DNA from: a virus
Direction: 5' to 3' (one strand)
Virus record (IMG/VR): IMGVR_UViG_3300011013_000043
Coordinates: 1 to 37,126 of that record
DNA length: 37,126 nucleotides
Of this stretch, positions 21,785-36,413 are shown one piece after another; position 1 is the stretch's first letter, and each line of letters begins with the position of its first letter. Both the position numbers and the translations under genes were made by a program. The notes below the pieces were generated by a model, which saw nothing but the letters and a program-made list of their open reading frames with translations, did not search any database and was not told the DNA's origin.

Positions 21785-24700
21785 ATGAGTAGTACTCTTA
21801 CACCAACTCAATATGTATCTAATGGAATGAGATTTAATGTTACTCCAGATAGATTAGAAGAGTTTATGCAAAAATATCCCGCTGCTAAATTAGCAAGTGA
21901 GGCACCTATGCAACACGCGGCTACTACACAAATATATTATACAGAAGACGGTAAGCAATTTAGAGTATCTCCTGATCAAATAGATAAATTTAAAGCTGAA
22001 AACCCTACTGGAAGAACTATAGAAGAATGGAATACTCATATTAAAGATGAACAAGATAAGTATAAAAAGGAGTTAGAAGAAAATAAACGTAAGCATGCAG
22101 AAGCATTGGCTAATGAAAGCGAAAGAGTTCAAAAAAGTGTTGATAAAATTAATAGTGATTTTGAAAATCATTTTGAAAATAAAGAAGATGAAAATTATAT
22201 TAAATTAAAAGATGCTTCATATCAAGAAAAAGCTAAATATTTAAAAGAAATTGAATTAAATGAAAAATATTCTAGTTTAGACAATGGAGAACTAAGTTTT
22301 TGGGGTAATATGAAAAACCTTGCTAGTGAAATAATAAATAATCCTAGTTTAGTTCCAGGTCAGATGGTGGTTAACGCTACCTCCGCGAGTGCTCAACAAA
22401 AAAGCGCTTATGATGCTGAATTAGAAATTCAAAGACTTAATACTCTAGAAGAAACAACTAATCAATATACAGATTCTAAAGAGTATGAAAAAATAATGCA
22501 GGAAAAACTAGAATTACATGCTAAGTTGGATGCTGCTTATAGAGACGTAAATATTGTAGATATACAAGGCGGAGTAAATTATTTAAATGGAGCTATAGAT
22601 AGAATAAAAAGTAGAAAAATTTCCGAACTTGGTCAAGAGTATATTATAACTAATGAAGAAGGCGAAGAAATTGTTGATACTGAAAATCCTATGTATCAAG
22701 AAGAATTAATAAAGATTCAAGACGAGGAAATAGAAATAACTAGAGAAGACTTTGATAGTGATTTAGATTTTAATCTTTATAATAAACTACAAGATGATAG
22801 GAATATTTTAGATGATATTAAAGCTAATTTAACAGAACAGCTTGGATTAGAACAATCAGTTAGAAATATAAGTGACGACGCTGCTAGAGAAGAAGTATTA
22901 AATCAAGCGTACAATCTAACTGATTACAATAATAATCCAGAATATAAAGAATTACTAGAAAAGTTACAATTAAAACTAGAAGCTGCAGGAACAACCTTAA
23001 GTTTAGAAGAAATAGCAGAGAAAATATCAAGTGGGATTGATAAAGAGGAATACTGGAGAAGTGAAAAAGAATTTGGAGGCGTTGGTCATAGCGATTTTGT
23101 TCATGGTGGTGTAAACAAATTAGGATCTATCCTAGAAGAGAATATTGAAAATGCTTATATTGATCAAATTAAAACTGATTATAAAGTACAAGAAAATTGG
23201 ATGACTGATGGGTACAAAGTAACAGTAGGATTAGATAATAAATCAACGATGTTTCAAGGAAGAGCATTAATAACTAAACCCACTAAAGGTTTAATTGATA
23301 GAGCAGCGTTAAGTTTGGGAAATGCTGAGGATTATATTCAATCAAAAGATAAAACAGTATTAGTAGATGGAGTAGAAATAGATGCTCAACAGGCAGCGAA
23401 AAACGAAGCTTTTCAAGATCTTATTACTTCAGATTCAACTATTAAATTACTAATGAATAATTATGCTAAAGAAGCTACTCCTATTCTTAAAAACTATAAA
23501 AAAGAGTTAGAAGAAAACTATGATTTAAGTAAAAAAGAAAATGTAATAGAAGTAAATAGACTTTTAGCTGCTAAACAACAGGAGTTAACTATAGACAAAC
23601 TGTATGACAGTGAAGAGTGGAAAAAAATAACTACTAGTTATGGAATGGCGTTAGACAACGTAGCTCAACAATATGATTCAGAATTTAAACGAAATGACAG
23701 TTGGGTGCTTTGGGGGTTAGATAAATTAAGATTAAAAGGGGCAGGAGAAACTGATTATATACCTATAAATGATACTCTAGCTGATTTACTTGAAGGAACA
23801 GTGTCAGGTGTTGAGGGAATAAGATCTTCTATAGCGGATAAAGCTTGGGGAAGTATCGCGGGTAATAGATTTAGAGCTAATAGAGCTAGAGCAGATGTAC
23901 TAGATCAACAATTAAAAGATGAAGATTTTACTAAAGAAGATAAGGTTTACTGGCATAATGGTAAATGGAATGTATGGGATGAAGGAGAAGATGAGGAGCG
24001 TAGAGACAAACGCACTTATAATGCAGGTGAATTATCTAAAGAATTAAAAGAAAATAAGGATTATTGGCAAAAAGAAATAGTTGAACAAATAGAGGATGTT
24101 GCAGAAAGTGAAGAATGGTTGTCTGTATTTAAACAAGCTGACTATAGTGATGGTATTTCAATAGGAGACGCCGCGTTAACCGTAGGACAAGCTCTACCGC
24201 ATATTGGAATAGCAGCAGCAGGAGCTTTAACAGGTAACCCTATGTTAGCTTATCTAGGAACTGCTACTATGTTTGCACAAATGTATGGTGATAATTATTG
24301 GAGTGCTATAGAAAACAATCTAGATAAAACAGGTTTTAGCAAAGAAAAATTAAAACAAGCTTACCCAGAGAAATCAGATGAAGAAATAGAGGAATTATAT
24401 ATTAAAGCTGCAACTAGTAATTTGCAATCTGGACAAGGAGCTAATATGGCGCATTCAGCAGCAATGGCCGCGGTACAAACAGCTTTAGAAACATATGGTG
24501 CCCAACAAGTTGTAGGGGGAACTCAAAAAGCTTTAGCAGGTAAAATTCCAGGTAATCCTTTTCATTTAGGAAATTTATTTAAAACTTCTATGGATGACAT
24601 TGGATCAGGAATATTAAGAGGATTAATTCATCAAGGAGGAAGTTCGTTAGAAGAATTTGGAACAGAGTTTATGCAAGAAATTGTTGGTCAAATATCAACA

Positions 24701-27700
24701 GCTCAGCAAGGAGGTTTAGAAAGCACTGCTTTAATTGATGTTAGCGCAGCTCTTCAAGCTGGTATTGGTGGTGCGATTACTGGATTTATGTTACCTTTTA
24801 GTGGTAGCATGTATAGATTAGGTTCTACAGCTATAAGACAAGCAGCTAACGATATAGCATTGGAATATGCTCCAGATGGTAAAAGAGCTCAATCAGTCGC
24901 CATCTCTAATGCGTGGTTTGAAGATTCTAAAAAGAAATTAGATAAAGAATATAAAAACAAATTAGACGATCCTGCAAAAAAGCAAGAATACTATGATAAA
25001 ATTAGTGCTCTTTCTAACTCATACAATGCTAGTGTTAAACTTGGATTGTTAGGTAAAGGGAAAGATAATTTTACTCAAACAATGACCGCTGAAAATAGAA
25101 GAGCAGTGTTAGATGGATATGTAGAGATTGAAAATTTACAGAATCAAATTGAGGGATTAGATAAAAATGATCCTCAATTATTAATTCTAAAAGAACAATT
25201 AAAAGAGGTTCAATACGATACTGCTGAGATAATTAAAGCAGAAAAAACTACTGCACGTGTTACTAAGATCATGAAAGATATAGGTAAGGCAAAAGAAGTA
25301 GTTATATTGGATGATTTATCAGCAAAAGAAAGAAAAGCTTTAAGAAAAAGCCAAGGATTTGGAGATAGAACCACTGGTATATTTGGAGAAGATGGTAAAA
25401 TATATATTGATAAAAATTTATCAGCTCAATTAAAATCTGGAAACACAGCTGCTCACGAACTGCTTCATAAGGTTATGTTTAACACTTTATATGATGTAGA
25501 TGCTGAAGGTAAAATACAAGGGAAAAACGTGGCTCAAGGATTAGTTAATGCTCTTGATGGTTATTTAGATCAATTAGATCCAGAAAACACTAGAGGTGGT
25601 AAAGAATTTGCTCAAAGATTAAAAATTTATAAAGATCGACCTAATACAATAAAAGCAGAAGAAAAACTTATGTTGTTTGCAGACGCTATTGAAAATGGTG
25701 ATATTAAATTTGATGAAAATGTATTTACTAAAATAGGAGATGTAGTACGTAGGTTCTTACAAGATGTGGGGATAACAGATGTTAAGTTTAATTCTGGTAG
25801 AGATGTGTATAACTTTTTAAAAGATTATAATGTAGCTATTAAAAAAGGTAAATTTGGTGATGCTTTAACAAATGTAATGGAAGAGGGTGCTGAAGTTGGT
25901 GAAAATATAGAAAGAATCACTGATGATGAAAACTTAGGATCTATGAGGAAAAGTGAAGCAGCTGCTACAGATTCTTATGCAGAAACGGATACTTTAATTA
26001 ACGATCCTGATTTTGATTTAGAAAATAGTTTTGACCAAAAAAGAGCTCTTAAGATCGCTGCTCCTGTAATAGAAGCTACTACTCAAAGATTATGGGATCC
26101 AAAAAGTTTGTTAACTAGAGATGAATTTAAGAAAACTTTAGAAAAAGAATACTTAGATTCTTTACAGGAATATGATGCGGATAGAGACACAGGTATGAAT
26201 GCTGGTAAATCTATTTCTAATAAGTTTAATTTAAGAGCAGCTAAAGTAGCTAAAGATAATATAGGTAAGGTTGAAGCAGAAAGTTTAGATGCTGAACAAG
26301 CAAAGCAAGTGCCAGACACTACAAAACAAAAAGATTTTGACGCTCCATTAGCTAAAGAAGACAAACAAAGAAAGAAAAAATTAACAGTAGAAAATAAAGT
26401 AGTAGATAGGGAAGTTGCAGGTGAGATTAAAAATCAAATAAAAGAAAATACTAGATCTACTATTTCTGTTTTGTTAAACAAAGGAAAATCAGTAGAAGAT
26501 ATTGTAAAAGCGTTAGATAAAGAAGCTAAGGAACAAGAGTTTAAGGATGTAAAAGGAAAAAAGACTTTAGCATCTAAAGCTTATGAAAGCTTTATAGATA
26601 ATCTTATAAACAATAAATTTATAAAAAATATTTCTGTAGCAGACATGAAGTCTAGATTTAAAAATCTATTTAATGTAAAAGAAACTGGTAAAATTCCACA
26701 AAAAGGAATTAGTCCTAATACAGGAAAAACTACTAACTGGAACAAGCAGGTGTTTAGTGTCACAGCTCCTTCAGATATAGATTTAAAAGAATATTTTATT
26801 CCTAAAAATCTTAAAAATTTAACTCCTGGAGAAAAAGATACTTATACAAAAAGAGCTAATTCATTATTTAATTTAATAGCTAAGGATATTAAAATAGAAT
26901 CTTTACAAGAACTTAAAAATGATAAAGATTATATGAAGAATTTAGATATTCTTCTTAAACAACAAAACTCTCCTTTAACTGCTACTCAATTCATCGATGC
27001 TATAGATCAAAAATTAGACAGAAGAAACCTAGAAGACACATCTTTAGACACTGTAAGAGCTAGTGAAGCCTTACCAACTCAAGACAAGAAAAAAGCTGAA
27101 GAGAGAAAGGCTAAACGAAAAAGTGAAGCCCTTAGAAGCAATAGAGAAAAAATAGCTAAACAAAAAACCAGAGACGTTGGGGTTGAAGGAATAGTTCCCA
27201 GATATAAAAGAGGAGAAAAAATTAAATATAAAAAAATAAGGGAAAAAAGTAGAAGATTAAAAGATGGAACTATTAGAAAAGCCGGAGTAACCGAGGTAAC
27301 TGCTCCTGCAAGTCAAGTTCCTGCTTATGCTAAAATAGAACAAAGTCCTGAATCTATACGAAAAAGAAAAAGAAATGTTTGGGGTCATTATAGTGTTATG
27401 GGAGATTCTGTTATGGGATCTAAAACAATGACAGGAAACAACTCTTCTTTTTATCAATTTAAAGAAGAAAAAAGTTATAATGGAAAAGAAAGAGAACATA
27501 GTTTAGATAAGGATTTAAATAGTACTTATGATACCAACATGTTTTATGCTGATGCCAGATTAGATACAGCAGCTATTACACCAGACATGACCTTTCAAGA
27601 ATTTAAAGATTTACCTCAACATAAAGATGTAGATTGGGATGGTAATGTTATACCAAGTGGAATAGATATAGAACAGATATTTAATAACGCTCAAGATGTA

Positions 27701-30700
27701 GCTATATTAAAAAAGCAGGGAGTTCCTATGTTGGAAGTAGAACCTGGAGTTTTTAAACTAAATAAAAAAGCTGCTAATTCTATTGATATTGAATATGAAG
27801 TTGATGGTAAAAAAACCAGTGTATTAAAAGAAGCTCAAAAAGAGCAAATAGGATCTAAAAGTTATAGAACATGGTCTCCTAAAACTTTTATAAAAAAAAT
27901 AAGTGATCCTCAGTGGAGAAAACAGCAGGTAGATAAAATTAAAGTACTTTATAATCTTGCTCAAGCTGTTCAACTAGATTTAAAAAACAATCCTGAAAAT
28001 TTAGGATATTGGACAGATTGGTTTGCAGCGGTTGATAACAATTCTAATCATCCTTTAAGAGCTTTAGCGCCAATAAGATTTTTTAGTAAAATAAAAAACT
28101 TAGTAAATATTGCCGAACATTCTATGCCGGTTAATCAAGTTTCCAGTTTAATTTTAGACATGGCAATGAGAGGAGAAGTAGAGAATGAATTTGATTTTAT
28201 AAAAAAGCATTATAGACAAGGACAAGTAAGAAAAGCTGATGATGATAAGTTAAAAAGAAGTTTGAAAGACGGTACAGATCTTACTAAAGATATGGGTACA
28301 CAGTTCTACGATTTAGAAAATCCTAACACGTGGAAGAGATATGTAGAAAAAGAAGTAAATGGTAGGGACAGTCAAGGAGGAATAAATTTAAACACTTATG
28401 AAACCTGGGACGAAACAACTGGGAAAAGACAAACCATAGCTCAATCTGAAGGCGTGGGATTAACTGAAGCCCAATACACAATGCCTGATGGAAGCTTAAA
28501 CCCTAACATTATACAGCAGCAAAATAATACCCTTTATGATATGTTTACTAAAGGGGAACCTACTGCTAAAGTAGCTAAATCTACTTTAACCTCTAAAGCT
28601 AATATAAATACTCAAAGAGCTAAAACAGTACAAGGTAAAAAAATAGTGAGAATGAACGAAGGTATTTTTAAAAAGAATAGTACCTCTAGTAGTTTAAAAC
28701 AAACTATGTTAAATTCTCAGGAAACAGCTGCTAAAGCAGAAAACCTTAACGCTCCATTAAAAGGTATTAGTGTTTTTGATATGGATGACACTCTAGCTAT
28801 TACTAAAGAAAAAGTTTTAGTTACTTTACCTGATGGGACTACTACTAAGCTTAATGCTACAGAGTTTGCTCAACAAGCAGAAACTCTTCAACAGCAAGGA
28901 GCAACATTTGATTTTAGTGAGTTTGTTGATGTTAAAGGAGCTAAAAAAGGTCCATTAGCAGATCTTGCTTTAAAACGTCAAGGGAAATTTGGTAGCGGAG
29001 ATATATATGTGTTGACAGCTAGACCTCAAGCATCGGCTTCAGCTATTAAAATATTTTTAGATGGTATAGGTTTAAATATTCCTATAGAAAATATAATAGG
29101 ATTAGAAGATGGAAGTCCTCAAGCAAAAGCTGACTGGGTATTATCTAAAACTGCAGAAGGATATAATGATTTTTATTTTGCAGATGATTCTAAGATGAAT
29201 GTAGATGCAGTTAAACAAGTTTTAGATCAAGTAGATGTAAAGTCTAAGGTTCAAGTTGCTAGAGCCAACGAAGCTGCAAATCTAGATAAAGAATTTAATG
29301 AGATCTTAGAAGAAACTACTGGGATGAAAGCAGGTGCTGAATATTCTGATACTAGAGCAAAATTAGAAGGTAAGAAAAAAGACAAAGGTTTGTTAAATTG
29401 GTTAGGAAATCAAGTAAGTATTACTGCTTCTGCAGAAGATTTTCTAGGACTATTATATGATGTTTTAGGAACAGGCGAAAAAGGTACTCAACACTTAAAG
29501 TGGATTCATGACAATCTTATAGATGTTTATAATAAAGCTGAACAAGAGATTTTATCAGCTAAAGTCACAGTTGCAAATGATTTTGCTGCGCTTAAAAAAC
29601 AATTTCCTAGTTTAAGAAGTAGAAGAGGCAATAATCCTCTAATGAATGAAATAGGGATTGGACCTTATACTAAATCTCATGCAATAAGAGTCTATAACTG
29701 GGTTAAACAAGGTATTGATATGACTCAGCATGGTATGTCTAAAAGAGATATTGATGCGTTAGTTAAAGCGGTAGAGAATGATAATGAACTAAGAGTATTT
29801 GCTGATGAAGTAGTGTTGATTCAAAAAGATTCTAAATATCCTCCACCCACTAAAAACTGGCAAGCTGGAGATATAGCTACTGATATTACAAATAGTTTAG
29901 AAAAAAGCTTGAGAAGAAAAGCTATGGCTCAGTTTGACAGAAATGTTGATATTATATTTTCAGAAAAAAATAAAAGAAAACTTAGAGCACTGTATGGAGA
30001 TAAATGGGTTAGTGCACTAGAAGATTCATTGCGAAGAATGAGATCTGGTAGTAATAGACCAGTGTACGTAGGAGGAGGCTCTAGAATTGTTAATGAATTA
30101 TTAGATTGGTTAAACGGTTCTGTTGGTGCTATAATGTTCTTAAATATGAGATCTGGATTGCTTCAATTAATATCTAATGTAAATTTTATAAATTGGGGTG
30201 ATAATAATATAGTAGCTGCGGCTAAAGCTTTTGTAAGTAAATCTTATTGGCCAACAGTGTTAAAATTAATGAATTCTGATTACTTAGTTAATAGACGAGA
30301 TGGATTAAAGATTAATGTTAATGAAGCAGAGCTTGCTAACGCGGCTAACCAGGGTGGAATTAAAGGGGTAATTGCTTTTTTATTAGATAAAGGATTTATT
30401 ATTACTAGAATAATGGATAGTTTAGCAATCGCAACAGGTGGTGCAACGTTTTTTATTAATAGAAAAGCTGCTTTATTAAAAAGAATAAATAAAGATACTG
30501 GTAAATTACATACTGAAGCAGAAGCTGAAACAAAAGCGTATAATGATTTTTATGCAATAGCAGAAGAAAGTCAGCAGTCAAGTAATCCAAGTAAAATATC
30601 CCAACAACAAGCTAGTTTAGCTGGTCGTGTTATACTTTCATTCCAAAACGTTACAATGCAGTATAATAGATTAACTAAAAAAGCAATAAGAGATTTATAT

Positions 30701-31477
30701 AATAGAAGGAGAAGACCTGGGCAAACACAACGAGAAGCTGATCTAAGCAATATGTCTAAAATAGTTTATTACATGGGAGTTCAAAATGTTATATTCCATT
30801 CTTTACAAAAACTTCTTATGGCAGGATTATTTGATGATGAAGAAGATGAAAAAACTAAAGATAAAACAGCAGAAGTCGCTAATGGAATGTTGGATTCATT
30901 ATTGTTTGGATTAGGATTTGGAGGAGCAGCTATTTCTACTATAAAAAATGTTATTTTAGAACTAGTGCATCAACATGGAAGAAAAACTCCAGAGTATGAA
31001 GAAGCGGTATGGAATTTATTTGATTTTTCTCCAGTACTAGACAACAAAGTACGTAAGATGCGTAGTGGATTCAAAACATTTAGTTGGAATAAAGAAGAAA
31101 TAAGAAAAAGAGGCTGGAGTTTAGATAACCCAGCTTATCTGGCTGTAGCCCAAATCATCGCAGCAGGAACAAATATTCCAATTGATAGAGTGCTTAGAAA
31201 AAGTATGAATTTAAGAGCTGCAATGGATGAAGAAACTAGAAACTGGCAAAGAGTAGCTTTAGTACTAGGTTGGGATACATGGAGTGTAGGACTTCCTTAT
31301 TGGGGATTAGAAAGCACTATAAAAAGAGAAGCTGAAGATAGAGCAAAAGCAAAACTACAATACAAACAAGATATTAAAAAGCTTAAAGCTATGGGTTATA
31401 AAAAAGGTGAAGATAACGGACCAGATGTTATCGAAGTAGAACATTTCACTGGGATAATACAATACTGGAGTAAATAA
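21785..31477 (+). CDS. Giant inner-virion polyvalent protein with zincin and HAD domains
   Basis: A 3230-residue protein, the largest in the window. Residues 14-36 and 56-79 are two copies of a G-x-x-F-x-V-[TS]-P-[DN]-[RQ] repeat. Long coiled-coil regions follow. A hydrophobic segment at about 796-840 and others near 975-1010, 2776-2805 and 3035-3060 could insert into membrane. A metalloprotease (zincin) site HELLH lies at 1224-1228, with a possible third ligand at E1292/E1293. A complete HAD phosphatase set lies at D2332 and D2334 (DMDDT), T2411 (LTAR), K2448 and D2467/D2468. The C-terminal ~460 residues (FLNMRSGLLQLISNVNFINW, NSDYLVNRRDGLKINVNEAE) form a module I associate with giant phage ejection proteins. 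Such polyvalent proteins are packaged and delivered into the host with DNA. A virion RNA polymerase was not recognised. The domain calls are by motif. Confidence 0.8.
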   Translation: MSSTLTPTQYVSNGMRFNVTPDRLEEFMQKYPAAKLASEAPMQHAATTQIYYTEDGKQFRVSPDQIDKFKAENPTGRTIEEWNTHIKDEQDKYKKELEENKRKHAEALANESERVQKSVDKINSDFENHFENKEDENYIKLKDASYQEKAKYLKEIELNEKYSSLDNGELSFWGNMKNLASEIINNPSLVPGQMVVNATSASAQQKSAYDAELEIQRLNTLEETTNQYTDSKEYEKIMQEKLELHAKLDAAYRDVNIVDIQGGVNYLNGAIDRIKSRKISELGQEYIITNEEGEEIVDTENPMYQEELIKIQDEEIEITREDFDSDLDFNLYNKLQDDRNILDDIKANLTEQLGLEQSVRNISDDAAREEVLNQAYNLTDYNNNPEYKELLEKLQLKLEAAGTTLSLEEIAEKISSGIDKEEYWRSEKEFGGVGHSDFVHGGVNKLGSILEENIENAYIDQIKTDYKVQENWMTDGYKVTVGLDNKSTMFQGRALITKPTKGLIDRAALSLGNAEDYIQSKDKTVLVDGVEIDAQQAAKNEAFQDLITSDSTIKLLMNNYAKEATPILKNYKKELEENYDLSKKENVIEVNRLLAAKQQELTIDKLYDSEEWKKITTSYGMALDNVAQQYDSEFKRNDSWVLWGLDKLRLKGAGETDYIPINDTLADLLEGTVSGVEGIRSSIADKAWGSIAGNRFRANRARADVLDQQLKDEDFTKEDKVYWHNGKWNVWDEGEDEERRDKRTYNAGELSKELKENKDYWQKEIVEQIEDVAESEEWLSVFKQADYSDGISIGDAALTVGQALPHIGIAAAGALTGNPMLAYLGTATMFAQMYGDNYWSAIENNLDKTGFSKEKLKQAYPEKSDEEIEELYIKAATSNLQSGQGANMAHSAAMAAVQTALETYGAQQVVGGTQKALAGKIPGNPFHLGNLFKTSMDDIGSGILRGLIHQGGSSLEEFGTEFMQEIVGQISTAQQGGLESTALIDVSAALQAGIGGAITGFMLPFSGSMYRLGSTAIRQAANDIALEYAPDGKRAQSVAISNAWFEDSKKKLDKEYKNKLDDPAKKQEYYDKISALSNSYNASVKLGLLGKGKDNFTQTMTAENRRAVLDGYVEIENLQNQIEGLDKNDPQLLILKEQLKEVQYDTAEIIKAEKTTARVTKIMKDIGKAKEVVILDDLSAKERKALRKSQGFGDRTTGIFGEDGKIYIDKNLSAQLKSGNTAAHELLHKVMFNTLYDVDAEGKIQGKNVAQGLVNALDGYLDQLDPENTRGGKEFAQRLKIYKDRPNTIKAEEKLMLFADAIENGDIKFDENVFTKIGDVVRRFLQDVGITDVKFNSGRDVYNFLKDYNVAIKKGKFGDALTNVMEEGAEVGENIERITDDENLGSMRKSEAAATDSYAETDTLINDPDFDLENSFDQKRALKIAAPVIEATTQRLWDPKSLLTRDEFKKTLEKEYLDSLQEYDADRDTGMNAGKSISNKFNLRAAKVAKDNIGKVEAESLDAEQAKQVPDTTKQKDFDAPLAKEDKQRKKKLTVENKVVDREVAGEIKNQIKENTRSTISVLLNKGKSVEDIVKALDKEAKEQEFKDVKGKKTLASKAYESFIDNLINNKFIKNISVADMKSRFKNLFNVKETGKIPQKGISPNTGKTTNWNKQVFSVTAPSDIDLKEYFIPKNLKNLTPGEKDTYTKRANSLFNLIAKDIKIESLQELKNDKDYMKNLDILLKQQNSPLTATQFIDAIDQKLDRRNLEDTSLDTVRASEALPTQDKKKAEERKAKRKSEALRSNREKIAKQKTRDVGVEGIVPRYKRGEKIKYKKIREKSRRLKDGTIRKAGVTEVTAPASQVPAYAKIEQSPESIRKRKRNVWGHYSVMGDSVMGSKTMTGNNSSFYQFKEEKSYNGKEREHSLDKDLNSTYDTNMFYADARLDTAAITPDMTFQEFKDLPQHKDVDWDGNVIPSGIDIEQIFNNAQDVAILKKQGVPMLEVEPGVFKLNKKAANSIDIEYEVDGKKTSVLKEAQKEQIGSKSYRTWSPKTFIKKISDPQWRKQQVDKIKVLYNLAQAVQLDLKNNPENLGYWTDWFAAVDNNSNHPLRALAPIRFFSKIKNLVNIAEHSMPVNQVSSLILDMAMRGEVENEFDFIKKHYRQGQVRKADDDKLKRSLKDGTDLTKDMGTQFYDLENPNTWKRYVEKEVNGRDSQGGINLNTYETWDETTGKRQTIAQSEGVGLTEAQYTMPDGSLNPNIIQQQNNTLYDMFTKGEPTAKVAKSTLTSKANINTQRAKTVQGKKIVRMNEGIFKKNSTSSSLKQTMLNSQETAAKAENLNAPLKGISVFDMDDTLAITKEKVLVTLPDGTTTKLNATEFAQQAETLQQQGATFDFSEFVDVKGAKKGPLADLALKRQGKFGSGDIYVLTARPQASASAIKIFLDGIGLNIPIENIIGLEDGSPQAKADWVLSKTAEGYNDFYFADDSKMNVDAVKQVLDQVDVKSKVQVARANEAANLDKEFNEILEETTGMKAGAEYSDTRAKLEGKKKDKGLLNWLGNQVSITASAEDFLGLLYDVLGTGEKGTQHLKWIHDNLIDVYNKAEQEILSAKVTVANDFAALKKQFPSLRSRRGNNPLMNEIGIGPYTKSHAIRVYNWVKQGIDMTQHGMSKRDIDALVKAVENDNELRVFADEVVLIQKDSKYPPPTKNWQAGDIATDITNSLEKSLRRKAMAQFDRNVDIIFSEKNKRKLRALYGDKWVSALEDSLRRMRSGSNRPVYVGGGSRIVNELLDWLNGSVGAIMFLNMRSGLLQLISNVNFINWGDNNIVAAAKAFVSKSYWPTVLKLMNSDYLVNRRDGLKINVNEAELANAANQGGIKGVIAFLLDKGFIITRIMDSLAIATGGATFFINRKAALLKRINKDTGKLHTEAEAETKAYNDFYAIAEESQQSSNPSKISQQQASLAGRVILSFQNVTMQYNRLTKKAIRDLYNRRRRPGQTQREADLSNMSKIVYYMGVQNVIFHSLQKLLMAGLFDDEEDEKTKDKTAEVANGMLDSLLFGLGFGGAAISTIKNVILELVHQHGRKTPEYEEAVWNLFDFSPVLDNKVRKMRSGFKTFSWNKEEIRKRGWSLDNPAYLAVAQIIAAGTNIPIDRVLRKSMNLRAAMDEETRNWQRVALVLGWDTWSVGLPYWGLESTIKREAEDRAKAKLQYKQDIKKLKAMGYKKGEDNGPDVIEVEHFTGIIQYWSK

Positions 31478-33752: not shown

Positions 33753-33842
33753 ATGCCAATCTGGAAAATAATTATACTAATATTAATGTCAATAGGATAT
33801 ATTTATATCATTATTAAATATCATAAACTAAATAAAAAATGA
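33753..33842 (+). CDS. 29-residue single-membrane-span peptide
   Basis: A short gene missed by length cut-offs: MPIWKIIILILMSIGYIYII then IKYHKLNKK. Residues 3-21 form one hydrophobic helix with a basic C-terminal tail, and the stop (TGA at 33840-33842) overlaps the next ATG (ATGA). Tight packing between its neighbours and coupling to the lipoprotein gene support translation. A single-span, tiny membrane protein beside a lysis block could be a holin or pinholin-like element, but its size also fits simple membrane regulators. Confidence 0.5.
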   Translation: MPIWKIIILILMSIGYIYIIIKYHKLNKK

Positions 33843-34285
33843 AACTATGGAAACTTGTCCTTTATGTGGCGGTCATTGTGGCCTTTGTTAGCAGTTGCGC
33901 ATCGTTAACGCCAGCGCCGTCAAACACAATTAAAGTCTTAGCTGTAACAGCTGAAGGTGATACAATACAGCTTGATGTTAATTCATTAAGACCTAGAGTG
34001 TATCAAAATATATACCATACATATCCTTATTATCATAATTACTGGAGACCATCTCCTTATTATGGTTGGGGTTGGAATAATTATTATTACACTAGACCTC
34101 AAGGAACTAGACCTAATAATGTAAATATTCCTAATATAGTTATACCTAACAAACCCACCGGCACATATAATAGACCTGCTAATCCAGGAACTGGTCCATC
34201 GTTATCACCAAGTTTAAGTACACCAACAAATTCTAATACAAATAAAGGAGGAAATGGCAGCACCACAAATAAGCGAGGAAACTAA
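33839..34285 (+). CDS. Lipoprotein, candidate outer-membrane spanin subunit
   Basis: A 148-residue protein with a type II signal peptide: a hydrophobic segment at 5-17 and lipobox VSSC with the lipidated Cys at position 20. The mature region is beta-like at first, then strongly Tyr/Trp/Pro/Asn-rich (HTYPYYHNYWRPSPYYGWGW), and ends in a Pro/Ser/Gly/Asn low-complexity tail. O-spanins are Pro-rich lipoproteins and their genes overlap those of inner-membrane partners. Here the next gene overlaps by 32 bases and encodes a membrane-anchored coiled coil. The order (lipoprotein first) is reversed compared with Rz/Rz1. A surface lipoprotein with another role is equally possible. Confidence 0.65.
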   Translation: MKLWKLVLYVAVIVAFVSSCASLTPAPSNTIKVLAVTAEGDTIQLDVNSLRPRVYQNIYHTYPYYHNYWRPSPYYGWGWNNYYYTRPQGTRPNNVNIPNIVIPNKPTGTYNRPANPGTGPSLSPSLSTPTNSNTNKGGNGSTTNKRGN

Positions 34286-34544
34286 AATAACATTAGATCT
34301 TAAAACTATCGGAATGATAGTAGGGTTTACAGTTACTATAGCTAGTATGTATTTTGTAATGCAGGCAGACATTGCAGAAGCAAAAGAATTACCTAAACCC
34401 CCAATATCTAAAACAGAATGGGAGTTGAAAGATGAGTTAATTCGTAATACTATTATGGATACACAAGATGATGTAGAAGAGATCAAAGAAACTATCGAAA
34501 AAATAGATGAGCGTTTATATGAAATAACGAAAAAAATAAACTAA
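34254..34544 (+). CDS. Membrane-anchored coiled-coil protein, candidate i-spanin or holin
   Basis: A 96-residue protein with a short polar N-terminus, one transmembrane helix at about 18-37 (IGMIVGFTVTIASMYFVM) and a C-terminal charged coiled coil (58-96, including EIKETIEKIDERLYEITKKI). This single-span plus coiled-coil layout fits an inner-membrane spanin or a small holin. It begins inside the lipoprotein gene after AAAGGAGGAA, a Shine-Dalgarno-like run unusually close to the ATG (two bases). Its stop overlaps the next ATG (TAATG). Its location shortly before the peptidase endolysin supports a lysis role, which is inference. Confidence 0.65.
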   Translation: MAAPQISEETKITLDLKTIGMIVGFTVTIASMYFVMQADIAEAKELPKPPISKTEWELKDELIRNTIMDTQDDVEEIKETIEKIDERLYEITKKIN

Positions 34545-34942
34545 TGAAATATTTTAATTTAATTTTACTATTGATTTGCTTTAACACCTATGGACAAGAA
34601 TGGGTAACAGATTCTACTTTTGATAGTAAAATAAACGAAAAGCAAGCTTTTGGTGATGATCAAACATTGCCAGTAGTAGTTGAGTTTTGGGCTGAGTTTA
34701 ACGACGCTAATAAGTTTGAGGATTGGAATAAGCTAGAGGATGTAGTTTATTATAGAGCAGATATAACTAAATGTCCTGAAGCAAAAAAGAAATATAAAGT
34801 AAGAATGGTACCTACTATAATTATATTTAAAGAAGGTATTAAAGAAGAAATATTTAAAGCTGGTTTAGATCTATTATTACCAGCGGATTTAAATGAAATT
34901 CAATCAGCAGTAAACGAAATAAACACTGCAAGTAAATTTTAA
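34544..34942 (+). CDS. Secreted thioredoxin-fold protein lacking the CxxC active site
   Basis: A 132-residue protein with a signal peptide (MKYFNLILLLICFNTYG, cleaved before Gln18). The mature part reads like a thioredoxin: VVVEFWA (44-50) is the strand that normally precedes WCGPC, but EFNDANKF follows instead, so both active-site Cys are missing. A YRADITKCPEAKKKY segment follows and then the cis-Pro loop MVPTIIIFKEG with P90. The only other Cys in the mature chain is C77. It cannot be an ordinary disulfide exchanger and may bind proteins or peptides in the periplasm. Start in a TAATG overlap with the membrane coiled-coil gene. Confidence 0.75.
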   Translation: MKYFNLILLLICFNTYGQEWVTDSTFDSKINEKQAFGDDQTLPVVVEFWAEFNDANKFEDWNKLEDVVYYRADITKCPEAKKKYKVRMVPTIIIFKEGIKEEIFKAGLDLLLPADLNEIQSAVNEINTASKF

Positions 34943-34946
34943 TAAA

Positions 34947-35102
34947 ATGAAAAAAAGGAAATTAAATAGTACTAATCCTAAATACTATCCTGTTCCTGAA
35001 GAAAAGAAAGTAAAAGTTCGTAAAGAATTAATAGCTAGTATTGACAAAGGAGTGTATCGCAAAAAAAGAAAGATAGTAAATGTATACGCAGTTTATGTAT
35101 AA
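34947..35102 (+). CDS. Small basic protein (51 aa)
   Basis: An ORF of 51 codons starting MKKRKLNSTNPKYYPVPEEK, with later basic patches (KVKVRKEL, YRKKRKIV). It fills the space between the thioredoxin-like and amidoligase-like genes: it begins four bases after the former's stop, and its end overlaps the latter's start by 8 or 23 bases, depending on start choice. The basic character could suggest nucleic acid or membrane-surface binding. No family recognised. Confidence 0.5.
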   Translation: MKKRKLNSTNPKYYPVPEEKKVKVRKELIASIDKGVYRKKRKIVNVYAVYV

Positions 35103-35856
35103 TATAGGATTTGAAATAGAAAAACAATTTATTCCCACTATAGTAAGAGATGTAAGAATAAAAGAAGTAAAATTTGAAATCATAAAAGAAGTAATTAAAG
35201 AACCATCATGTGGTGAAGAAATTATAACTCATCCAATGGAGCTTACTTCTAACATGAATAAAAGAAAAGAAATTTTTAATAAATTTATTGAAGCGCAGCA
35301 TTTAATAGCAACTCCTATAACTGTAAAATGTGGGACTCATGCTACTCTTACAATAGAAGGAGAAAACGATGGAGAAAAATTATTAGAAAAGATAAAACCT
35401 TATGCGTCAGTTTTATATGCTTTGTATAAAAATAGGTTATTCAATAACTATTGTTGTGGAAACTTTTGTTTACTAACAGATAAGGAAATAGAAAAAGGAA
35501 TAGAAGGTTTAAACAACAAAGAATACAAATATAATACCATTAGTAGTTATGCTGATAGGTTAGAGTTTAGATTATTTCCAGCTATAAAAAATCATAAAGA
35601 ATTATATTACTTATATAGTTTAATTTATATAGTAGTAGATTCTGCTTATAAACAAGTAGATCAAAACGAGTATTTAAATAAAATAAAAAATTTTTTAGAA
35701 GATTATTACTGGAAACCCTCGGCTTTAGAAAATTTATTTTTTAATGCTAAATGGTTTAATAAGGCTATTTTAAATCGTGAAACCAATCCTATAATTAGTA
35801 AGTATATACGTAATACTAAATGGCCTGAAAGTTATCAAGGTAAAAGAAATATTTAA
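35080..35856 (+). CDS. Amidoligase-like enzyme (GS-fold COOH-NH2 ligase)
   Basis: A 258-residue soluble protein. The motif order fits the putative amidoligase family: GFEIE at 10-14 (first strand with Mg/ATP-binding acidic residues), CGEEIITHPMEL at 44-55, CGTHATLTI at 84-92 (family typical CGxHxHh, here with Ala for the second His) and RLEFRLFPA at 160-168. This family joins carboxyl and amino groups using ATP and is predicted to make peptide-like modifications. The neighbouring M15 peptidase targets peptidoglycan peptides, so both may act on cell-wall or protein peptides. The alternative start at Met6 (35095) gives an ATG eight bases from the upstream stop and may be the real one. The CC at 125-126 is unusual. 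Confidence 0.65.
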   Translation: MYTQFMYNIGFEIEKQFIPTIVRDVRIKEVKFEIIKEVIKEPSCGEEIITHPMELTSNMNKRKEIFNKFIEAQHLIATPITVKCGTHATLTIEGENDGEKLLEKIKPYASVLYALYKNRLFNNYCCGNFCLLTDKEIEKGIEGLNNKEYKYNTISSYADRLEFRLFPAIKNHKELYYLYSLIYIVVDSAYKQVDQNEYLNKIKNFLEDYYWKPSALENLFFNAKWFNKAILNRETNPIISKYIRNTKWPESYQGKRNI

Positions 35857-35867
35857 TTTACACTATT

Positions 35868-36332
35868 ATGAGAATAAGTGATCACATTACGTACGCAGAG
35901 GCAATACACTCTAATACAGCTAAAAGAAAAAATATAGATAATACACCAAATGAAACTCAAGTAGAAGCTATGAAATTATTAGCTGAAAAAGTGTTTGAAC
36001 CATTAAGAGAATGGGTTGGAGGACCAATTAAAGTTAATTCATTTTTTCGATCAGAAGCTTTGAACGAAGCCATTGGTGGATCAGCTACTAGTCAACATTG
36101 TAAAGGGCAAGCAATTGATATTGACGATGTGTATGGTAGAAAAAGTAATGCTGAAATGTATAACTGGATTAAAGATAATTTAGATTTCGATCAAATGATT
36201 TGGGAATTCGGTACAGACATGCAACCTAATTGGGTGCATGTATCATATGTTTCAGAAGAAAAGAATAGAAACAAATGTTTAAAAGCATATAAAGAACACG
36301 GTAAAACTAAATATAAAGTAATATCATCATAA
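35868..36332 (+). CDS. M15-type zinc peptidase, likely endolysin
   Basis: A 154-residue enzyme of the D-Ala-D-Ala carboxypeptidase/L-Ala-D-Glu endopeptidase fold (M15, related to phage T5-type endolysins). The zinc ligands are visible: H77 and D84 in SQHCKGQAID, and H124 in NWVHVSY. E113 in the segment IWEFG is the probable catalytic base. The preceding IKVNSFFRSEALNEAIGGS (54-72) is the conserved first half of the fold. It should cut peptide cross-links of the cell wall. No signal peptide, so a holin or other membrane event would be needed; candidates lie upstream. It is the last + strand gene before the convergent terminators. Confidence 0.85.
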   Translation: MRISDHITYAEAIHSNTAKRKNIDNTPNETQVEAMKLLAEKVFEPLREWVGGPIKVNSFFRSEALNEAIGGSATSQHCKGQAIDIDDVYGRKSNAEMYNWIKDNLDFDQMIWEFGTDMQPNWVHVSYVSEEKNRNKCLKAYKEHGKTKYKVISS

Positions 36333-36372: not shown

Positions 36373-36380
36373 TGTAACTG

Positions 36381-36413
36381 AAAGGGATCTCTTATGAGGT
36401 CCCTTTCTTTATT
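36381..36413. terminator. Terminator between convergent genes
   Basis: An 11-bp stem, AAAGGGATCTC paired with GAGGTCCCTTT (one wobble), closes a TTAT loop and is followed by CTTTATTT on the + strand: a classical intrinsic terminator. The A-run on the left arm gives a short T-run on the minus strand as well, so it may serve both convergent units. Confidence 0.8.

Follow-up and report, generated by a model that had tools for sequence, protein, structure and literature searches.

The window, by which we mean the whole stretch of DNA analysed, is a 37,126-base linear virus record, a fragment of a genome from an uncultured marine phage lineage. Directly ahead of its predicted endolysin lies a solitary gene whose product is supported, on structure modelling, as having a glutamine-synthetase (GS) fold and as being amidoligase-like in enzyme class. 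Phage genes of this type are known, but such a pared-down setting for one is unusual.

A solitary amidoligase-like gene in a late lysis operon

The terminase of the window is 63.5% identical to that of phage record MW202828.1 (Manatee Spring) and 44% identical to those of Flavobacterium phages, and one window protein carries a crAss-type muzzle domain. The late region includes an ORF of 3230 aa (21785-31477), and the features that concern us here are the following.

33839-34285, end of the late operon: 148-aa protein, its start signal-like, with a Cys in VSSCAS
34254-34544, plus strand: 96-aa membrane protein with a weak holin match (phrog_1296, E 0.003)
34544-34942, plus strand: thioredoxin-fold protein of 132 aa (PF00085, 1.1e-7); signal-like start, CxxC site lacking
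34947-35102, plus strand: small basic gene of 51 aa, the left edge of the slot, overlapping the amidoligase start
35095-35856 (253 aa) or 35080-35856 (258 aa), plus strand: solitary gene for the putative GS-fold amidoligase
35868-36332, plus strand: M15 peptidase of 154 aa, predicted endolysin
36380-36407, plus strand: intrinsic terminator-like hairpin 3' of the M15 gene, 12 pairs with a T-rich tail

The amidoligase ORF (35080-35856) ends 11 nt ahead of the M15 start on the same strand, and an earlier interpretation made from the letters alone (the sequence-only reading) was right to place the gene directly before an endolysin. It was equally right in calling the neighbour a peptidoglycan peptidase, which matches PF08291 (6.4e-17, 62.1 bits where the cut-off is 23.2) and the endolysin family phrog_894 (4.6e-31), and which contains HCKGQAID and WVHV, strings that we take to be the zinc-site motifs of M15. 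The likelier start of the amidoligase is the ATG at 35095 (MYNIGFEIE) rather than that at 35080, since it matches the start of the second solitary copy described below, L212 (MWKIGFEFE). Its G+C content of 25% is the lowest among the genes measured (others 27-35%).

The thioredoxin-fold gene is a conserved upstream member of the lysis cassette in kin phages, and its product reads WAEFND where an active-site WCGPC would be expected. The 148-aa gene overlaps that of the membrane/coiled-coil protein at 34254-34544, a layout like that of an overlapping spanin pair. Terminator-like sites are enriched between 33300 and 36600 (5 observed against 0.8 in shuffles), and after the hairpin at 36380-36407 comes a convergent ribonucleotide reductase gene. 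A promoter scan was uninformative, with 16 sites against 18.6 expected.

Predicted fold and active site

The structural model was built from an alignment, A2, which comprises the window protein and 65 relatives; these derive from 80 loci after 14 near-duplicates and L070, whose interrupted ORF was kept out of all protein alignments, had been left out. The AlphaFold2 model (pLDDT 89.7, pTM 0.87) retrieved nine PDB chains with Foldseek at E<=0.001, all nine being glutamine synthetases or gamma-glutamyl-methylamide synthetases (GmaS), with low query TM-scores (0.33-0.40) and long gapped alignments. With VIA-align, all 50 matches shown were GS, GS-like, GmaS or YbdK-type structures; that to human GS has a Z of 9.7 and an rmsd of 3.7 over 173 residues and pairs model residues 3..208 with residues 125..372. 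Counting along this pairing, and assuming it to be ungapped there, we take E12 and E14 to correspond to the human GS ligand residues 134 and 136. Among viral models in BFVD, 20 of the 46 matches at E<=0.001 are named amidoligase, while the best four are unnamed (query TM 0.76-0.83, 22-23% identity). The model of the L212 protein (pLDDT 91.7) has the same fold (VIA-align Z 9.9, rmsd 3.2 over 163). The predicted structure thus holds the GS fold on which the sequence-only reading had staked its case.

The predicted active site falls into five motifs:

35104-35124, plus strand: motif 1, IGFE12-I-E14-K, first strand with predicted metal ligands, residues 9-15, invariant in 66 sequences
35200-35229, plus strand: motif 2, E41-P-S-C-G-E-E47-I-I-T, predicted ligands
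35329-35340, plus strand: motif 3, C84-G-T-H87 (CGGH in most relatives)
35434-35463, plus strand: motif 4, R119-L ... YCCGN128
35563-35571, plus strand: motif 5, E162-F-R164, with E and R invariant

Sixteen columns of A2 are invariant, including I9, G10, F11, E12, E14, C84, H87, E162 and R164, and so are E47 and R119. The strings GFEIE, CGTHATLTI (residues 84-92) and RLEFRLFPA (160-168), from which an amidoligase had been suspected, are not chance resemblances because their key residues are among these invariant ones, and their fit to GS-fold amidoligases is borne out by structure, by a profile-profile match (see below) and by the conserved ligand shell. That predicted metal/ATP shell (E12, E14, E41, E47, H87, R119, E162 and R164) is present in the window protein, the roles of its positions being those we assume from general knowledge of GS. 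No predicted ligand position is missing, a loss that would have spoken against the assignment, and the one change is at position 41, Asp in all 65 other sequences and Glu here. Overall, of the 33 columns whose conservation reaches 95% or more among the 65 others, the window protein keeps 24; of 117 variable columns it keeps 19. The nine changed conserved columns include E39, A48 and R178, which are invariant in the 65 relatives.

A family of amidoligases and its usual partner

Taken alone, the window protein found nothing useful in Pfam, PHROGs, the IMG/VR scan or PDB sequences; weak labels (SMODS, TssD, four-helix bundle) were treated as chance, and two sub-threshold matches, at E 0.044 and 0.059, were to NCBIfam models of the YbdK/carboxylate-amine ligase type. 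One GenBank phage record, MW202828.1, holds a homologue (UOF82541.1; E 8e-11, BLASTP E 2e-19; 26% identity over 204 aligned columns), and the alignment of these two sequences was used to open the family in IMG/VR, where 174 relatives were found and 80 examined. The window protein is 24-31% identical to the 65 other members of A2. The MW202828.1 homologue (L002:11134-12858) has 574 aa, about 285 of them before the GS domain; in other relatives the match begins 33 to 230 aa into the ORF, and the solitary copies are without this N-terminal stretch.

It had been proposed that comparison with the amidoligase family would confirm the assignment, and it does so in part. The A2 profile aligns by hhalign with eight phage amidoligases (prob 83.8, E 7.9e-6, 178 columns), where the best of 100 column shuffles gave prob 10.8 and E 0.0028 and a separate 30 shuffles reached 0.032. 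The Pfam model itself, PF12224 (Amidoligase_2), went unmatched by the window protein at E<=10 and is not among the 24 families matched by any of the 66 members at E<=1; as a positive control, seven of the eight phage amidoligases match it. The window protein is therefore not filed in that Pfam family, and these profile comparisons would make it a member of a sister family within the same superfamily. Against eight PF14395 (COOH-NH2_lig) phage proteins, assigned to that family by annotation, homology and position, hhalign found no similarity (prob 5.5 and 3.6). In PHROGs one of the 66 members matched a family named amidoligase (E 0.00092), in NCBIfam four had sub-threshold matches to a glutamate-cysteine ligase model (best 0.00023), and a scan of bacterial genomes, in which 191 stretches were tried, yielded one partial match, on an Erythrobacter MAG contig.

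In MW202828.1 the amidoligase is followed by a protein with a GGACT (cyclotransferase) domain and a class-II glutaminase (GATase) match just below the cut-off. A likely GATase lies near the amidoligase in 70 of 81 loci (the 80 plus MW202828.1), and 68 of these 70 partners carry a fused GGACT domain, the exceptions being L029 and L079. Where the partner is downstream, it is on the same strand at a distance between 6 nt and 4.9 kb; that of L079 is upstream, and the 11 loci without a partner stop within 2.5 kb downstream. The name GATase is tentative, the N-terminal part of the partner scoring 22.5 and 22.9 bits against a Pfam cut-off of 23; the GGACT part lies above its own. A whole-record search, in which both positive controls matched (one of them the query's own record), found no GATase-GGACT protein in the 37-kb window or in 11 kin records. 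None is present either in the 51-kb record of L212, or in G001 (68.85 kb) and G046 (67.3 kb), which also carry no amidoligase. The GGACT family was likewise not found in the window. As a linear fragment of 37 kb, the window may lack a stretch of genome that encodes a GATase. Two kin records, G049 (L279) and G119 (L280), contain GATase matches that are each interrupted by one in-frame TGA, which may reflect damage, frameshift or recoding.

The slot before the endolysin

The small basic gene and the M15 gene bound a slot that is occupied differently among kin phages. Terminase kin were sampled at 80 of at least 600 loci, with whole-record searches on 41 records of at least about 10 kb, and M15 kin at 80 of 516 loci, behind which stand 79 distinct records. 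The amidoligase profile found no match in the 41 terminase-kin records, five of which contain the M15 gene; the same profile was positive in the control records of other searches. Stretches in G036, G014 and G001 have the gene order of the window minus the amidoligase, with a 75-aa ORF in its stead in G014. In G036, G001 and L194 a single nucleotide separates the stop of the small gene from the ATG of M15, i.e., an empty site, and the M15 of L194 is 99% identical to that of the window. The 3' end of the small gene also differs, reading YAVYV before the stop in the window and YAVFSEIE or SEID in these three. A blastn match from 35828 was considered as a 3' remnant of the amidoligase in L194 and dropped, the alignment looking like an A+T-rich extension.

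A small gene lies upstream of M15 in 37 of the 80 M15-kin loci, leaving 20 slots empty (<=40 nt) and 17 occupied; of the 14 occupied slots that were read, one holds an amidoligase (L212) and 13 hold other genes: that of L214 looks nuclease-like by eye, and small basic proteins are encoded in others. Such proteins, in strings, occupy the slots of L217, L218, L223, L229, L233, L235, L240 and L258 and have motifs in common, SACKAAAKRKFKVWPSAYASGW or a near variant and TKTCLPASKIRSMSK. In the ORFs of these 80 loci the profile finds no amidoligase besides the one ahead of M15 in L212. Searched as whole records, three of the 79 contain an amidoligase, namely that of L212 and G049 and G119, where it is longer, lies elsewhere and is accompanied by the GATase match. 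Conversely, when 82 sources were searched, with flanks no longer than 8 to 12 kb, an M15 gene of the window type was seen near an amidoligase in three: the window, L073 (at 7.4 kb) and L002 (at 10.5 kb). The slot is a hotspot for accessory genes, and, L212 aside, the adjacency of amidoligase and M15 is not conserved among M15 kin; with contents so mixed, position alone proves little about function.

Two records bear further on the assembly of this region. G036 (77 kb; L214 and L236) has one M15 with a TAA inside its matched stretch and an occupied slot, and another with an empty slot; its interpretation as a complete circle was dropped because the two M15 copies differ. The 67-kb contig of G046 (L196 and L283) ends inside the thioredoxin-like gene and inside M15, so that, in a circular or permuted genome, the slot would fall within the unassembled stretch.

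The strangest feature is the comparison with L212. Its amidoligase (216 aa, A2 profile E 3.5e-41) is 27% identical to that of the window, while the flanking small gene and M15 are 66% and 86% identical. In 40 relatives, 34 columns show conservation of 95% or more, of which the window and L212 keep 25 each and 20 in common; the predicted ligands are kept in both, with D in L212 and E in the window at position 41. On this alignment, the predicted active site has been held while the remainder evolved fast in both copies. Their branches are very long, 2.74 and 3.05 where the median is 0.23, which may imply an altered function. The two pair at SH-aLRT 89 on these long branches; with the other copy left out, the window copy is placed near L029 and the L212 copy elsewhere. 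One fast lineage or two separate gains would both fit.

Proposed function and alternatives

We tentatively propose the following reading, which as a whole we consider somewhat short of probable. The gene would have been gained singly, into an accessory slot of a phage lysis operon, and would encode a small ATP- and Mg-dependent carboxylate-amine ligase of GS fold, expressed late on one transcript with the M15 endolysin, as the operon layout suggests. The ligase would activate a carboxylate as an acyl phosphate and couple an amine to it without the likely glutaminase partner. The likeliest target, and the least certain step, would be a carboxylate in the stem peptides of peptidoglycan or in the cytoplasmic precursors of these, and the wall of the dying cell would be altered in how it is cut, or in what a second phage meets. 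We infer catalysis, late co-expression and amine source alike: that the protein catalyses is very probable, and that it acts on a wall target falls only just short of probable. For a gene in a late operon, a role in lysis is the better fit and exclusion of superinfecting phages the poorer one.

The sequence-only reading had taken the peptidase next door as a clue to function and had known of no function for such phage enzymes. The first point carries little weight, because the slot is so often empty or otherwise filled and the usual conserved partner, GATase-GGACT, is absent here; a functional link between amidoligase and endolysin is possible but weak. The second was too pessimistic, as phage amidoligase modules are known and have been proposed to modify peptidoglycan (PMC5498523, PMC11945000, PMC10580990, PMC6256558). 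Counted against our preferred reading are that the slot takes unrelated genes, so that M15 need not be linked to the amidoligase functionally, as well as Glu41, the lost E39, A48 and R178, the long branches and the non-late placement of the module elsewhere. The more specific version, in which the amidoligase works alone and late, is made with the endolysin and alters stem peptides before the endolysin cleaves them, thereby setting the timing or products of lysis, is unlikely; if true, an enzyme from a lysis operon would be writing the wall instead of cutting it.

Perhaps the most serious rival, a real if lesser possibility, is that an active ligase is simply an accessory (moron) gene whose target is unrelated to lysis (a small metabolite, say, or a phage, host or defence protein), and that the slot is a tolerant insertion site that is read late. 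The 17 occupied and 20 empty slots, the other genes in 13 of the 14 read, the rarity of the amidoligase among M15-kin records (three of 79, two of them elsewhere with a GATase match) and its lowest G+C content all accord with this. However, two highly different amidoligases occupy exactly this slot, and the whole module in other phages is proposed in the literature to act on peptidoglycan.

It is distinctly unlikely that we are looking at the ordinary amidoligase of a complete module, with GATase-GGACT in the unsequenced part and only the gene order odd. Several kin records run to 58-69 kb where the window is a linear 37 kb, and G049 and G119 do carry a longer amidoligase with a GATase match; yet L212, with the same solitary arrangement, has no partner in its 51 kb, nor have G001 and G046, which also lack the amidoligase, and both solitary copies are without the N-terminal stretch of their relatives. 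A decayed or repurposed, non-catalytic GS-fold protein, e.g., a peptide binder or an inhibitor, would account for the very long branches, the D41E change and the loss of E39, A48 and R178, but is very unlikely given an intact ORF and predicted ligand positions that are all acidic, His or Arg in both copies. A DNA- or nucleotide-modifying ligase, which the position of the known module among DNA metabolism genes might suggest (PMC5498523), is extremely unlikely for a gene in a late lysis operon of a window among whose scanned proteins no base-modification gene was recognised.

The role of the phage amidoligase module is an old proposal, namely a change of the wall against superinfection, or the making of endolysin targets or weakening of the wall (PMC11945000, PMC5498523); in the open-licence literature searched, we found no functional test of a phage amidoligase and none in a lysis operon. 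A one-gene version in a lysis operon, together with kin in which the site is empty, narrows the problem to a single small protein and a single endolysin, so that the role can be tested directly. The family itself (174 IMG/VR loci) is missed by Pfam in the 66 members scanned, and its conserved GATase-GGACT partner helps its annotation.

Comparison with known systems

The closest comparison is with the A2 family, whose members, such as UOF82541.1 of MW202828.1, are direct homologues of the window protein; these relatives have an N-terminal stretch and a nearby GATase-GGACT gene, and the window has neither. The PF12224 phage proteins (UFV-P2 gp23, LUZ24 gp18) share with it the motif order GxExE, DxS...E, R...C, KY and EFR. 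They differ in the third motif, which is CxxHxH (STHVH-type) in those proteins, CGTH in the window and CGGH in most of its relatives, and the window protein is shorter, has no HMM match and no GATase in its surroundings. Also comparable are the YbdK/glutamate-cysteine ligases, which share the GS fold (VIA-align Z 9.4 to YbdK, 1r8g) although the window protein scores far under the curated NCBIfam cut-offs for the YbdK type (12.7 bits against 176), and the Pup ligase PafA and Dop, GS-fold enzymes that act on proteins, which stand lower in the fold lists, are much larger and show no sequence relation that we could find.

In named phages the module combines PF14395, PF12224, GATase, ATP-grasp and cyclotransferase genes in varying make-up near replication genes, as in UFV-P2 and Cellulophaga phage phi14:2, whose 515-aa gene (26122-27669) has the same length as a BFVD entry named amidoligase. 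Published descriptions place the module among transcription and replication genes (PMC5498523) and report that PSA-HP1 transcribes its module genes immediately, not late (PMC7082346). The peptidoglycan-modification module of phiEco32, LUZ24, RIO-1 and PSA-HP1 shares with the window a predicted GS-fold amidoligase; in the window, where GGACT and GATase-GGACT were sought and are absent, it is a single gene, and it stands in a late lysis operon.
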